From the NCBI GenBank assembly GCA_018970085.1, contig JAGWXD010000001.1, positions 186,001-250,000 on the forward strand: a DNA stretch of 64,000 nucleotides. Reading direction: 5' to 3'. Under the pieces are notes generated by a model, which was not told where the DNA came from, searched no databases, and worked only from the letters and a program-made list of their open reading frames with translations. Shown here in pieces: positions 27,938 through 34,552 of this stretch. The translations under genes were made by a program, and so were the position numbers. The first letter of the stretch is position 1, and every line of letters starts with the position of its first letter. This DNA comes from Cyanobacteria bacterium REEB459 (GTDB taxonomy: Bacteria; Cyanobacteriota; Cyanobacteriia; Phormidesmidales; Phormidesmidaceae).

Positions 27938-28420
27938 CTACTCCCGCGCCCCTCGGTTGGAAGGTGTAGCGAAGGCGGCCATTAAAAGACAGACAATGCC
28001 AATATTGATGCAAACATCTGCCACATTAAAAATCGGAAAGTGAATCAAACGAAAATCTAAGAAATCCACCACTTCTCCTGCCAGTAGCCGATCAAGGCCA
28101 TTGCCAAGGGCCCCGCCCAGAATTAAACCGTATCCTACCTGCTCCCATCGATTCACCAGCCTGGCCTTCAGACCCAGGGCAATTAACCCCAGGCTAACCG
28201 ACATAGACAGCCACTTCAACCATTCTCCATGGTGACTCAATAGACTAAAGGCGGCTCCCCGATTAGTGACGTAGGTGAGATGGAAGACTCCTGGCCAGAG
28301 GGCAATGGACGCAGGGGGGCGGGTAAGGGCAAGGCTGTGGGCGATGGAGAATTTGGTGAGTTGATCAAGACTTAGGCCGACAATCGCGGCTAGCCAGAAG
28401 AAATGGTTGCGAAGACCCAT
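27938..28420 (-). CDS. lspA: lipoprotein signal peptidase (signal peptidase II)
   Basis: Aspartyl protease in the inner membrane that cleaves prolipoprotein signal peptides after lipidation. Four hydrophobic segments; the catalytic aspartates are in GNGLDRLLAGEVVDF and FNVADVCINIG, with the expected NRGAAFSLL loop. About 160 residues from the ATG at 28420 (MGLRNHFFW); a GTG at 28441 in the same frame would overlap bioY by 17 bases and cannot be excluded. Probably cotranscribed with bioY. Confidence 0.95.
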   Translation of the reverse strand: MGLRNHFFWLAAIVGLSLDQLTKFSIAHSLALTRPPASIALWPGVFHLTYVTNRGAAFSLLSHHGEWLKWLSMSVSLGLIALGLKARLVNRWEQVGYGLILGGALGNGLDRLLAGEVVDFLDFRLIHFPIFNVADVCINIGIVCLLMAAFATPSNRGARE

Positions 28421-28424
28421 GGAT

Positions 28425-29042
28425 TTAGTAAAAAAGTGCACGCCTTAAGGCCAGAGATAGGACGGCTACGGCACAAACCAGCACCAGGTGGCCTGGCAAC
28501 AGCAGTATGGAGTAATTCCACACTAACTCCCCATAGGAGTTAGAAACCATCTTTAGCCAGCCTAGCAGGGAAGCGAGGGTGAGGTAAATAAACCCTGAGC
28601 TATGAATAATTGCCAGTCCACACAGACTACTGAGGGCCAGGTTCTCGAGCTTAGGCGGCCACAAAAAGGCCAGCTGGCCACACAACCAGCCGGCAGGAAT
28701 AAACCCCAGCAGGTAGCCAAAGCCGGGCTCTTGCACGTAGCTCAAGCCACCCCCCTGGGTGAAAATCGGCAGTTTGAAGGCCTGAAATAGGGCCAGGCCA
28801 AGCACCAGATAGGCAACCTGGGAGAGGGCGGCGGCGTTGCGCCCGCCGACGCAGGCGGTGAGCAGAACGGCCCCAACTTGAAAGCTCACTCCCAGGGAGA
28901 AAACAGTGGTACCAGATTGACTCCAGACCCAGGCAGGATTGACCGTAAAGGTTTCCATCCAGGTACCGAGAATGGTCAGCACCAGGCCGATGAGGGCCCA
29001 CAGTAGTTCAATCGGGGCCAGCAGGGGCGATCGCTTCTCCAT
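28425..29042 (-). CDS. bioY: biotin transporter BioY (ECF S-component)
   Basis: Membrane S-component that binds biotin in ECF transporters. Six hydrophobic segments; family motifs FSLGVSFQVGAVLLTA, the GGGLSYVQEPGFGYLLGF block and the C-terminal FLPGH-like LLPGHLVLV are visible. 205 residues. The ATG at 29042 has AGGAA nearby. It is followed by lspA on the same strand; the ECF module genes ecfA (15210) and ecfT (18912) are elsewhere in the window, which fits a shared 'group II' module. Confidence 0.92.
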   Translation of the reverse strand: MEKRSPLLAPIELLWALIGLVLTILGTWMETFTVNPAWVWSQSGTTVFSLGVSFQVGAVLLTACVGGRNAAALSQVAYLVLGLALFQAFKLPIFTQGGGLSYVQEPGFGYLLGFIPAGWLCGQLAFLWPPKLENLALSSLCGLAIIHSSGFIYLTLASLLGWLKMVSNSYGELVWNYSILLLPGHLVLVCAVAVLSLALRRALFY

Positions 29043-29217: not shown

Positions 29218-30867
29218 CTAGCGATCGCCAGCCGGGACAGATAACCTAAACTGATAGAGGGATTGGCAGTCTAACTCGCCGGCACAGACTGGCTCTGGAA
29301 ACGAGAAGTGATTGAGCACATCGGGATGAATTTCCCCAAATTCTCCTACGATTTGTCCCTCCATCAGCACCATCGCTGAACGCCCACTAATGTAGTAAGG
29401 AGCCTGGCCAGGTACCAGGGTATAGGTGTAGCCCAGGGCCTTCAGTAGGGTTTGCATATAGGCCTTAGCCGTAGTGAATGAAGCCCGGGCATCGAGGCTA
29501 GCAAAACCCCAATGATAGCCTTCCAGCACCTGATCGCTAGCCTGTAACCGTATTACCTCCCCAATTTCGTAAATATTAATGGGCTTGGGAGCGTTGATAT
29601 TCCGGCTCAGAATCTCCAACAACCCCGCCAGCAGGGTAGGCCGGGTAGCGCTAAAGCTACGGCTTTTAGCATTACTGGTCTGTAGGTAGGGAAAGTGAAA
29701 GAGATCGAGGCGATCGGGGTCGGTAAGAATATAGCTTTTCACCTCCATTAAGCCCAGACGTTGGGCCAGATCTCCCACCCGCAGGCCAAACTGTTGCAGG
29801 GCTGCCGCCTTACCCAGGTGAAACTTGACCGCCAGGGGTTCGGCCTGTAGGCTGTCAATCCCCAGGGCCACCAGTAGGTCACCGGCAATATCAACCTGGC
29901 TAAAAATGTCAGTGCGATAGGTGGGAACGTAGATGACATCCTGGCCACTTACCTGCAAATCCATACGGGCCAGAATCGGGCCCAAACCAGTCTTAGGAAT
30001 GGCCGTGCCGATAATCTCATTGAGAAAGCGGGCAGAGAAGCTGACCGGACGACGCTCTAGAGAGGGGGTAACCAGGCTGTCGGCGGGAAAGTCAATGGCT
30101 ACGGTTTCTACCCGGGCGCCGGTGTCTAAAAAGTTGTGGGCCAAAATATTGATGGTTTCCATCACAGTTTGGGACCGAATACCCGTCACATCAATGAATA
30201 GATCTCTGGTATCGGGGGTGATTTCTCCAACCCCGGCAGCATTGATGATGGGCGGCATGGAGAGCACCTGGCCGTCCTGGTCCCGTAAAACTAGAGCTAC
30301 ATCTTCTACGGGCAGGGTATGGTGGTAAAGCTGACCCGCCGGATGCTGGGATAGAATTTGGCCAGCGGTCATGGCTTCCCTAGCCTGTAGCGGGGTAAAG
30401 ACAATTTCTTCCTGGGGCTGGGCGGCGTAGGTGAGATCGCCGACAATCTGCTTCAGGTCGTAAACCCCAATGGCAATTTTTTGTCGTTGCCGACCAAAGG
30501 TTTGGGTCACTTTTTCTTGAAACTGGATCAATACCTCCAGACCGCCATCGGCTAAATGGGCCTGGCGTACCACCAGGGCGGCAATGTAGGGGCGCAGGGG
30601 TTGGACTGACGGGGATACTCTAATCCGCCGACCGGAGGGGGCAAGGCGGGGGGGCAGGGACCGTGGTTTGCCATTATAAATATTAATGGCCCGGGTAAAA
30701 CCCTCCGCTGCCAGTAAGTCGGGACGTTCAGCCGTCACCTCCACCTCCAGGTCTGATCCCCTTAAGGTGGCCTCTAGCCCATAGTCAAAGGCCTGGGCCT
30801 CGAGATCGACTGGGGCTGTAGAGGTTAGGCGTTGTAGGTAAGCCAGGGGAAAGGTGACGGTGGGCAT
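29218..30867 (-). CDS. pheT: archaeal/eukaryotic-type phenylalanyl-tRNA synthetase beta subunit, orphan
   Basis: 549 residues, the length of archaeal PheT and much shorter than bacterial PheT (about 800). Order: N-terminal VEVTAERPDLLAAEGFTRAI; B3/B4 editing domain with RPYIAALVVR, LIQFQEKVTQTFGR, KIAIGVYDL, MPPIINAAGVGEI and DLFIDVTG; a B5-like domain; a C-terminal catalytic-like module with RPTLLAGLLEILSRN, GRSAMV and GEFGEIHPDVL. No tRNA-anticodon or tRNA-binding extension of the bacterial beta type. The editing-site Asp/Thr of archaeal enzymes (FIDVTG) are kept. No pheS is near; it follows smc by 31 bases on the same strand. Possible roles: second PheRS beta, trans-editing of Tyr-tRNA(Phe), or a different ligase-related function. 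Confidence 0.88.
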   Translation of the reverse strand: MPTVTFPLAYLQRLTSTAPVDLEAQAFDYGLEATLRGSDLEVEVTAERPDLLAAEGFTRAINIYNGKPRSLPPRLAPSGRRIRVSPSVQPLRPYIAALVVRQAHLADGGLEVLIQFQEKVTQTFGRQRQKIAIGVYDLKQIVGDLTYAAQPQEEIVFTPLQAREAMTAGQILSQHPAGQLYHHTLPVEDVALVLRDQDGQVLSMPPIINAAGVGEITPDTRDLFIDVTGIRSQTVMETINILAHNFLDTGARVETVAIDFPADSLVTPSLERRPVSFSARFLNEIIGTAIPKTGLGPILARMDLQVSGQDVIYVPTYRTDIFSQVDIAGDLLVALGIDSLQAEPLAVKFHLGKAAALQQFGLRVGDLAQRLGLMEVKSYILTDPDRLDLFHFPYLQTSNAKSRSFSATRPTLLAGLLEILSRNINAPKPINIYEIGEVIRLQASDQVLEGYHWGFASLDARASFTTAKAYMQTLLKALGYTYTLVPGQAPYYISGRSAMVLMEGQIVGEFGEIHPDVLNHFSFPEPVCAGELDCQSLYQFRLSVPAGDR

Positions 30868-30898: not shown

Positions 30899-33800
30899 CT
30901 ATAGGGTAGCGCTTTGGGCTTCCAGGTCGATCCCCAGTACCTGGGTATAGGCTCCCCGCGCCTGGGTCACCCCAATGGTGCGCTGGGAGGCTTCAATCAT
31001 CGGGCGTCGCAGACTCACCACAATAAACTGAGCCTGCTCAGCCTGCCGCTTAATCATGCGGGATAGCCGTTCCACATTGGCCCCATCCAAGAACATATCC
31101 ACTTCGTCAAAGGCATAGAAGGGGGAGGGACGGTACCGTTGTAGGGCAAAGATGAAGCTCAGGGCGGTAAGGGATTTTTCTCCCCCCGACATCGAGGCCA
31201 GTCGCCGGACGGGCTTACCCTTGGGGTGGGCGACTAGATTGAGACCGCCGTTAAAGGGATCTTCGGGGTCTTCTAGCTGCAGGTGACCGTCCCCATCGGA
31301 GAGTTCCGCAAAGATGGTTTGGAAGTTTTCGTTGACGGCGTCGTAGGCCTCCTGGAAGGCATTGCGCCGCAAGGTGGTAAAGGTTTCTACCCGTAGCAGG
31401 AGTTCGGTACGTTCTTCCTCCAGGGTGGCCAGTTTCTGACTGAGATCCCCCAAACGCTCTTCCGTACGCTGGTATTCCTCCAGGGCCAGCATGTTAACGG
31501 GCTCCATGGCCTCCAGGCGGCGTTGTAGCGATCGCAGTTCCTTGCGTAGCTCCTCCAGATCGAGGTCCACCGGTAGCTCGGGCAGCGGATCGGGGAGGTC
31601 GGCGGTCTGAGCCTCCATCTGGGCCTGGGCCTCTAGCAATTGCTGCTGACGCTCCTTCTGGGTATCTAAAAGTTTTTGCCGCTGCCACTCCTGCTGTTGG
31701 GTTTGGGTGCGTTGCTCCCGCAGACGTTGCTCCAGCCCATCGCGACTGGCCTTTTCCGCCGCCAGGGTTTGATCCAACTGGGCCATTGATTGCCGCAGTT
31801 GGTCAATTTCCTGGTTCAGGGCCACCTGTTGCTGTTTAGTTTGGCCCAACTGCTCAGCGTGGCTACTCTGTTGCTGTTGCAGGGTCAGGATAGCCTGTTT
31901 GGCTTGCTGAATCATCAGTTCAGCCTGTTGCTGTTGGGTTTGGTGGGTCTGGACCTGGCGTTCTGCCGCCTGTAGGCGGGCTTGGGCCTGAGCCAGGTCC
32001 TGCTCTGCCTGGGTGACAGCGGCCTGGGCGGTCTGCCATTCACTGTGGGTTTGGGACTGCTCCAGGGCGGCCAAAGTCGACCGCTGGACGGCAATTTCCT
32101 CTTCCTGCAGGGGTAGGGTGGCGGCTAGCGCTTGTAAGCGGGCCTGGGTCTGGTTGAGTTCTTGCTGCGCCTGATCTAACTGGGTGCTAATCTGACTGCG
32201 GCGTTCTGTCAATTGCTGGTGCTGAGATTGCTGCTGTTGTCCCTGGAGTTGTAGCTCCCGGTGCTGCTGACGCTGGCTAATCAGGTCCTGCCCCAGGGTT
32301 TGTAGGGTAGTGGTAATCTCCCCTAGAGTGCGATCGCAACGTTCCAGCATAGCCTCGATTTCCCCCAGACGCTGGCGCAGAGCCTGGGCTTCAACCGATT
32401 CTGCGGGCTCTACCGTGCCAAAGTGGAGGCTTCCCGATCTCTGGGAGAGGGTTCCACCGGTCATTGCGCCACTGGTTTCCAGAACTTCCCCCGCCAGGGT
32501 GACCATACGAAACTGGCCGAGGTGCTGGCGGGCGGTTTCCAAATTATCAAAAACGGCGGTGCTGCCAAAGGTATAGGCAAAAATATCGCGATGGCGGGGG
32601 TCGCAATCAATCAGGTTGACCGCATAGTCGAGGAAGCCATCGGGGCGCTGCCAGGCCGGCAAGGGAGTAAACTGGGGTGCCCGAATCTTATTTAGGGGTA
32701 GAAAGGTAATCCGACCAGCCCGCCGTTGCTTAAGGAATTCAATGCCCTGGGCCGCCACCCGATCGCTATCTACCACCAGGTAACCCAACCGGGCTCCCGC
32801 CGCCACCTCTAGAGCCACCTGATAGCGCGGATCAACCTTACCCAACTGGGCCACCAAGCCGTCAATGCCCCGTAAGCCGCTATCAATGAGTAGTTTGGTC
32901 GCCTGGGTCCCCTGGCTTTCCTCCACGGCTTGGGCCTGGGCCTCGAGGCGATCCAGCTGGCGCTGTTTATCCCGTTGCTCTTTCTGTAGGCGAATTTGGG
33001 TGTCGCGCTGAACCGCCAGTTCCGCCTCAGCCGCCGTGATTCTGGCGACGGTATCTTGAATTGCCGTTTCCATCGCAGCCAACTGAGCCGGGATAGCTGA
33101 GGCCTCTTCAGGGGCCGTTTCCCCACCCAGGGTCTGGAGTTGATCCTGCTGGGTTTGAATTTGCTGCTGTAACTGATGCAACCGCTCCTGCAGGCGAATT
33201 TGCTCCGATCTCTGGGGTTCGATGGCCCTCACCAGTGCCTCTAAATCATGGCGAAGTTGGGCCTGTTGTTGTACCCAGGCCTGGGAGGTAGCGGCAATGG
33301 CACTGGTGGCCTGGCGACGGTCCTCCAGATCCTGCTGTAGCCGATCGCGGGTGGTGGTGAGGCTCACCAGTTCCGTACTGGTTTGGATAGCCAGCTGGCG
33401 CTCCAATTTAGCCCGCTCCTGTTGGTGCTGCTGGAGGGCGATTTCCGTATCCCGCAACTGAGCCGCAATCTGATTGGCGACTTGACGGGTATCCTGTTCC
33501 TGGCGCTGCAACTGGCGGAGCTCAGCTTCCTGGGTAGCCACCTGAGATTGCAATGCCAGGTACTCCTCTTCTCCCATGGCCTTAATGCGGCTGTTGAGTT
33601 CCGCCAGTTCGGACTCCAGGGCGGTCAGGGCCGACTGCCCGGCTGCGATCGCCTGGGCCAATTCTACGGCTTCTGTTTCCCCCGCCGCCAAGGCCTGCCG
33701 CAGAGCCGCGATCTCCTGCTCCTGCTGACGCCACAGCAGCACCCCTTCCCATTGACTCTTGGTTTGAAAGACCGCCTTAAGGTGCTGATACTTCTCAGCC

Positions 33801-34552
33801 TTTTGCCGATCCTGGGCCAGTTTTTCCAGTTGGGTTTGCAGTTCCCGTTCCACAATGCGAAAGCGATCTTCGTGGTCCCTGACCGCCTCTAGCTTGCCCC
33901 TGGCCTGCTCAATTTTGCGATCGAAGGCCGCCACCCCAGCTAGCTCATCAATGATTTCTCGACGCTCCCGGGAATTCATCGAAATAATGCCGGTGACGTC
34001 CCCCTGGAGGACCACATTATAGCCCTCGGGATAAATATGAAAACGTTGCAACTGATCGTGCAGGTCGTTGAGGGTACAGGGTTCGCCGTTGATGGAGTAA
34101 TTAGAGGTATAGGTACCCTGACTGGTGACGCGGAGTCGCCGGGTCACACTCCATTCCCGCGGTAGGGGCAAAGGGACCACCTTGTTTTTCAGACTGGGGT
34201 TAACCGTTGCCTCCAGACCAGCATCATCTATCCTGGCATCCACCCCGCCATCCTGCTCCAGAGCAGGCAGCATCAGTTCAGGGGCGACATCACTGAGGTC
34301 AAAGGTAACGGTGACACTGGCCTCTGAGGTGGATTTACGCCCAATCTGATTTTGATTCACCAGATCGGGCAACCGCTCTGCCCGCATGCCCTTAGAACTG
34401 GCCAGCCCCAGACCAAACAATAGAGCATCTAAAATATTAGACTTACCCGACCCGTTAGGGCCAGATATGACAGTAAACCCAGGCAATAGAGGAACCTGGG
34501 TCGTACCACCAAAGGATTTAAAGTGAGACAACTCAACGCGCTTAATGTGCAC
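30899..34552 (-). CDS. smc: chromosome segregation ATPase SMC
   Basis: Condensin ATPase, 1217 residues. Head: Walker A GPNGSGKSNILDALLF (31-46). Two long Gln/Glu-rich coiled coils flank the hinge (about 545-690, GIDGLVAQLGKVDPRY ... MTGGTLSQR). C-terminal head: signature MSGGEKSLTALSF, Walker B YAFDEVDMFLDG and the D-loop that follows. Start GTG at 34552 gives the usual MHIKRVELSHFKSFGG. The C-terminal coil has unusually many Gln runs. The archaeal-type pheT lies directly downstream; scpA/scpB are not in the window. Confidence 0.97.
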   Translation of the reverse strand: MHIKRVELSHFKSFGGTTQVPLLPGFTVISGPNGSGKSNILDALLFGLGLASSKGMRAERLPDLVNQNQIGRKSTSEASVTVTFDLSDVAPELMLPALEQDGGVDARIDDAGLEATVNPSLKNKVVPLPLPREWSVTRRLRVTSQGTYTSNYSINGEPCTLNDLHDQLQRFHIYPEGYNVVLQGDVTGIISMNSRERREIIDELAGVAAFDRKIEQARGKLEAVRDHEDRFRIVERELQTQLEKLAQDRQKAEKYQHLKAVFQTKSQWEGVLLWRQQEQEIAALRQALAAGETEAVELAQAIAAGQSALTALESELAELNSRIKAMGEEEYLALQSQVATQEAELRQLQRQEQDTRQVANQIAAQLRDTEIALQQHQQERAKLERQLAIQTSTELVSLTTTRDRLQQDLEDRRQATSAIAATSQAWVQQQAQLRHDLEALVRAIEPQRSEQIRLQERLHQLQQQIQTQQDQLQTLGGETAPEEASAIPAQLAAMETAIQDTVARITAAEAELAVQRDTQIRLQKEQRDKQRQLDRLEAQAQAVEESQGTQATKLLIDSGLRGIDGLVAQLGKVDPRYQVALEVAAGARLGYLVVDSDRVAAQGIEFLKQRRAGRITFLPLNKIRAPQFTPLPAWQRPDGFLDYAVNLIDCDPRHRDIFAYTFGSTAVFDNLETARQHLGQFRMVTLAGEVLETSGAMTGGTLSQRSGSLHFGTVEPAESVEAQALRQRLGEIEAMLERCDRTLGEITTTLQTLGQDLISQRQQHRELQLQGQQQQSQHQQLTERRSQISTQLDQAQQELNQTQARLQALAATLPLQEEEIAVQRSTLAALEQSQTHSEWQTAQAAVTQAEQDLAQAQARLQAAERQVQTHQTQQQQAELMIQQAKQAILTLQQQQSSHAEQLGQTKQQQVALNQEIDQLRQSMAQLDQTLAAEKASRDGLEQRLREQRTQTQQQEWQRQKLLDTQKERQQQLLEAQAQMEAQTADLPDPLPELPVDLDLEELRKELRSLQRRLEAMEPVNMLALEEYQRTEERLGDLSQKLATLEEERTELLLRVETFTTLRRNAFQEAYDAVNENFQTIFAELSDGDGHLQLEDPEDPFNGGLNLVAHPKGKPVRRLASMSGGEKSLTALSFIFALQRYRPSPFYAFDEVDMFLDGANVERLSRMIKRQAEQAQFIVVSLRRPMIEASQRTIGVTQARGAYTQVLGIDLEAQSATL

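Follow-up and report, generated by a model that had tools for sequence, protein, structure and literature searches.

An archaeal-type pheT gene downstream of smc

The window, a 64-kb stretch of cyanobacterial DNA, carries at positions 29,218-30,867 on its minus strand a gene (P0001) for the beta subunit of a phenylalanyl-tRNA synthetase (PheRS) of the archaeal/eukaryotic type. The gene had been described as a 549-codon reading frame in an earlier note that gave no strand, and it is indeed one uninterrupted frame with no internal stop, the plus-strand reading of the same interval being broken by 25 stops. Its 549-aa product passes the NCBIfam model TIGR00471 (pheT_arch) over its full length (331 bits against a cut-off of 282.65 bits, 1.2e-98; residues 1-536 aligned with profile positions 1-549 of 551) and fails the bacterial model TIGR00472 (124.4 bits against a cut-off of 402.65), so that NCBI's own model would already label the gene pheT. 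Every motif that the earlier note had quoted for an archaeal PheT order is present. The best phmmer matches are human, yeast-like, Plasmodium and Pyrococcus PheT, and matches in the PDB include the human (3l4g_B) and Pyrococcus horikoshii (2cxi) proteins. Pfam finds the B1, B3/4, B5 and CLM domains only; both the N-terminal tRNA_bind and the C-terminal FDX-ACB domains, which bacterial PheT has, are absent. An AlphaFold model built from 19 relatives matches the P. horikoshii fragment 2cxi with a TM score of 0.88 and an rmsd of 2.6 (Foldseek); because residues 336-450 are poorly modelled, only the reliable N-terminal half is relied on here.

As had been noted, pheT lies downstream of smc (30,899-34,552, minus strand): the ORF list and the junction sequence place it 31 bp past the smc stop on the same strand, and the two genes are probably co-transcribed. 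A simple sigma-70 scan found no promoter-like site around pheT, a result of little weight by itself. On the other side follow bioY, a biotin transporter component (28,425-29,042, minus strand; PF02632), 175 bp downstream of pheT, and lspA, encoding signal peptidase II (27,938-28,441, minus strand; PF01252); both are neighbours of pheT without a demonstrated functional link.

A partner subunit and two PheRS in one genome

The earlier note regarded the gene as lacking an alpha partner. Within the 64 kb this holds, since no pheS is found there, but the genome as a whole (3.24 Mb, 99.8% complete) encodes two PheS proteins, a bacterial one of 333 aa on contig C49 and a longer archaeal-type one of 497 aa on contig C51 (82,323-83,813). 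The latter passes NF003210 (399 bits against a cut-off of 350) and matches human cytosolic PheS with an E-value of 1e-83. The same whole-genome search found a complete bacterial PheT on contig C31, 813 aa long and carrying tRNA_bind, B3/4, B5, CLM and FDX-ACB; aligned with E. coli PheT (3pco), it keeps GQPLHAFD, GGE and TEAS, which we take to be the editing-site motifs of the bacterial subunit. Bacterial PheS and PheT are also full length in all 10 genomes examined. It had been argued that an archaeal-type PheS elsewhere in a genome devoid of bacterial PheT would make the window gene simply the organism's PheRS; the archaeal-type PheS is indeed elsewhere, but the bacterial PheT is present. Because the bacterial pair is complete and an archaeal-type PheS is encoded as well, the window gene encodes the beta subunit of an additional PheRS, one of the two roles that had been proposed for it, and the source genome has two complete PheRS. 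The two enzymes share their predicted reaction and, as far as found, their tRNA-Phe, and differ in architecture, the bacterial enzyme having an 813-aa beta subunit with tRNA_bind and FDX-ACB and a 333-aa alpha subunit. A single tRNA-Phe (GAA) was found with an exact anticodon-stem pattern, which a divergent second copy would escape.

Around the archaeal-type pheS of the source genome, a D27-like gene (beta-carotene isomerase C-terminal domain; L003:138-839) ends 10 bp before pheS on the same strand. Convergent with pheS lies a gene (L003:2333-3688, minus strand) that, judged by eye, looks like the C-terminal part of an intein-split dnaE and starts MLRGTPMAKIISRQCLG...ASNCFNKSHS.

Conservation of the catalytic and editing sites

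The B3/B4 editing-pocket stretch of pheT occupies positions 30,184-30,288 of the window (minus strand). Residues L202, S211, D234 and T236 of P. horikoshii PheT, which we take to be its editing residues and whose letters agree with 2cxi, correspond in the alignment to L194, S203, D226 and T228 of the window protein, so the earlier suggestion that the editing residues are preserved is borne out. Among 34 cyanobacterial sequences aligned with 2cxi, the human protein and 8s8b, the leucine and the threonine are invariant, and the serine and the aspartate are each kept in 33 of 34. The archaeal-type PheS is conserved to the same degree at its catalytic motifs: motif 2, motif 3 and the NPYTEPS block show no variation among the cyanobacterial proteins and are near-identical to human PheS, the invariant blocks of the Phe pocket and of motifs 2 and 3 being NPYTEPS, AWGLGLER and FHQIEG.

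The one sequence that departs at the serine and the aspartate is a divergent PheT of genome G424 (L122:6692-8434, minus strand), in which the editing-pocket serine is replaced by cysteine and the aspartate by glutamate, the latter as in human; this protein also has a short in-frame insertion of NGQA repeats near its N-terminus.

Distribution and gene order

The archaeal-type enzyme belongs to a group of filamentous cyanobacteria. Archaeal-type PheT is present in 32 of 59 relatives, namely all 28 members of the window's genus together with G415, G416, G418 and G424; in the PheT-negative genomes all matches are weak and C-terminal, to bacterial PheT. Of the 32 positive genomes, 31 also have archaeal-type PheS; the one without it, G388, is a draft of 86% completeness. 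At wider scales the gene occurs in 33 of 65 genomes of the order and in 37 of 390 genomes of a class sample, comprising the window's genus, some relatives and 5 genomes in 3 other families; thus it is not found in all cyanobacteria, an occurrence that, by the earlier note, would have removed the novelty of the gene. Archaeal-type PheS was found in 10 of 10 genomes tested outside the window's genus that have archaeal-type PheT, and in 0 of 12 tested that lack it. In a phylum-wide sample of 386 genomes, which holds few near relatives, the window genome alone scores above the TIGR00471 cut-off. Among the named records that carry archaeal-type pheT are Nodosilinea nodulosa PCC 7104, Leptolyngbya sp. 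PCC 6406 and Tildeniella torsiva, and near-complete assemblies with it include G395 (2 contigs), G402 (6) and G399 (7). Contamination was rejected as an explanation, because pheT shares a 261-kb contig with the adjacent smc and is found across the whole genus. No archaeal-type PheT was seen among phage, plasmid and viral-contig relatives; a match to a Fusobacterium plasmid record proved to be an ordinary bacterial PheT of 798 aa.

In five genomes (G416, G467, G549, G572 and G587) the archaeal-type pheS lies directly upstream of pheT, and in the window's genus, G418, G424 and G439 the two genes occupy separate loci whose neighbours vary from genome to genome. The smc-pheT adjacency was not seen in the other genomes inspected in the neighbour survey. 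Because the neighbours differ among genomes, the place of pheT behind smc is one of several positions, and a late one; with unrooted trees, we infer rather than observe that adjacency was ancestral and the split derived. In G416, a gene for a Trm1-type tRNA (guanine-26) dimethyltransferase (L124:4026-5132) immediately precedes the archaeal-type pheS-pheT pair. Trm1 was rejected as a functional partner, being widespread in genomes both with and without the archaeal-type PheRS.

Selection on the archaeal-type pair

Full-length open frames of the archaeal-type pair are found in about 30 genomes, and in close genome pairs dN/dS is near 0.07 for both genes (0.026/0.36 and 0.026/0.35 for G389 and G405). 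The pair evolves faster than its bacterial counterparts, with a median dN of 0.234 against 0.151 for PheT and of 0.141 against 0.069 for PheS, a difference of 1.5-2 times that is as expected of a less central enzyme. Across 31 genomes, the trees of the archaeal-type PheS and PheT correlate with r 0.967, a value reached by 0 of 2000 permutations; this fits co-evolution of the subunits, but may just reflect shared species history.

A probable accessory archaeal-type PheRS

The retention of a complete native bacterial PheRS makes the archaeal-type PheRS an accessory enzyme. Read together as sequence evidence, the presence of both subunits with their active and editing sites, their co-occurrence, the operon of the relatives, purifying selection and coexistence with the bacterial PheRS argue, with a probability of roughly 0.88, for an accessory, horizontally acquired archaeal-type PheRS that would work as an alpha2beta2 enzyme beside the native one and whose operon was later split. 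An archaeal-type pheS-pheT operon would most likely have entered cyanobacteria by transfer and, within the window's genus, have been broken into two loci, with pheT landing behind smc in the source genome. The archaeal-type alpha and beta subunits would assemble as alpha2beta2, the alpha subunit activating Phe and charging tRNA-Phe (GAA), and the B3/B4 domain of the beta subunit hydrolysing mischarged Tyr-tRNA-Phe.

Other readings of the gene have to be set against this one. That PheT acts alone, as a free-standing factor hydrolysing Tyr-tRNA-Phe made by the bacterial PheRS, was suggested in the earlier note, and it draws on the intact editing residues, on the absence of pheS from the window and on the existence of free-standing editors of the same fold, the canavanyl-tRNA deacylase CtdA being among the structure matches. 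However, pheT is accompanied by an archaeal-type pheS in all but a single incomplete draft and has it as a direct neighbour in five genomes, the catalytic motifs of PheS are conserved equally with the editing site, and bacterial PheT has a B3/B4 editing domain of its own, all of which makes trans-editing very improbable and corrects the picture of an orphan PheT. Still harder to credit, to the point of near-certain rejection, is the idea that a transferred PheRS survives here only as an inactive or decaying relic: the faster evolution relative to the bacterial copies would suit it, but the frames are full length in about 30 genomes, the catalytic and editing residues are conserved, and a dN/dS near 0.07 already weighs against it.

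Somewhat less remote than either, though improbable in its own right, is co-option of the pair, for charging a Phe analogue or for a tRNA-dependent biosynthetic or regulatory role, in place of ordinary Phe-tRNA synthesis. Coexistence with a complete bacterial PheRS, a patchy distribution and the 1.5-2 times faster evolution would all fit such a change of function, but the NPYTEPS, AWGLGLER and FHQIEG blocks are invariant in cyanobacteria and near-identical to human PheS, and the neighbour survey saw no recurring biosynthetic neighbour of the pair.

For the accessory PheRS preferred here, the most likely role, at the level of a guess, is that of a back-up or condition-specific enzyme, used under stress or when a Phe analogue or inhibitor hits the bacterial enzyme. 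A dedicated condition-specific PheRS, for example one that withstands a natural inhibitor or a Phe analogue poisonous to the bacterial PheRS, or one having a separate editing range for oxidised Phe (m-Tyr), is a tentative proposal that we consider plausible yet rather doubtful; were it true, these cyanobacteria would naturally run two PheRS on a single tRNA-Phe. Where duplicated synthetases have been characterised, the copies are distinguished by their expression, antibiotic susceptibility, substrate specificity or thermal stability (PMC4787780), and tyrosine isomers are handled differently by bacterial and yeast PheRS (PMC4066437).

The tRNA bears on how such an enzyme might work. The tRNA-Phe of the source genome carries G34, A35, A36 and A73, elements shared by all domains, together with U20, the E. 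coli-type element, where G20 is the determinant in Aeropyrum and yeast. With U20 instead of G20, the charging efficiency of the archaeal-type PheRS is uncertain, and the enzyme may have adapted to such a tRNA or may work less well on it.

Relation to known PheRS and origin of the pair

Archaeal-type PheRS in bacteria and duplicated synthetases are both already known. In spirochaetes (Spirochaeta, Borrelia, Treponema) the archaeal-type PheRS is a replacement, described as a shared derived character (Andam and Gogarten 2011, PMC3191353); archaeal-form subunits measure 513-528 aa (alpha) and 514-573 aa (beta) (PMC3191353), and those of the cyanobacteria are of similar length. Whereas the bacterial form was replaced in spirochaetes, both complete enzymes coexist in the cyanobacteria described here. 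The P. horikoshii (2cxi) and human (3l4g) enzymes share with the cyanobacterial one the domain order, editing residues, catalytic motifs and fold, at a PheT identity of about 29-33%, but here the host is a cyanobacterium whose tRNA-Phe is of bacterial type (U20). The ThrRS pair T1/T2 of Anabaena (PMC4787780) likewise represents a second synthetase retained by a cyanobacterium beside the housekeeping one; its expression is zinc-dependent and its second copy is editing-impaired, whereas the editing residues of the archaeal-type PheRS are intact. No report of a cyanobacterial archaeal-type PheRS beside the native enzyme was found in the open-access papers searched, which is weak evidence of absence. 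A bacterium that keeps two complete, deeply divergent PheRS, as opposed to the replacement in spirochaetes, offers a natural system for asking what purpose a second PheRS serves and how an enzyme of archaeal type handles a tRNA-Phe of bacterial type, questions of interest for translation biology and gene transfer.

In a PheT tree that compared the cyanobacterial proteins with PDB sequences, cyanobacterial PheT stands on a long branch next to Pyrococcus and the eukaryotes in a three-way split. The composition of the window gene is native (GC3 0.59 against 0.62, sd 0.05, for the window genes, thus within one sd), which suggests that the acquisition is probably old. A minor observation concerns G402 and G387, compared at loci L086, L084, L111 and L113 against L174, L178, L183 and L187: dS between them is 0.68 and 0.88 for the archaeal-type PheS and PheT and only 0.31 and 0.36 for their bacterial counterparts, a hint that strains may have recombined or exchanged the archaeal-type pair.
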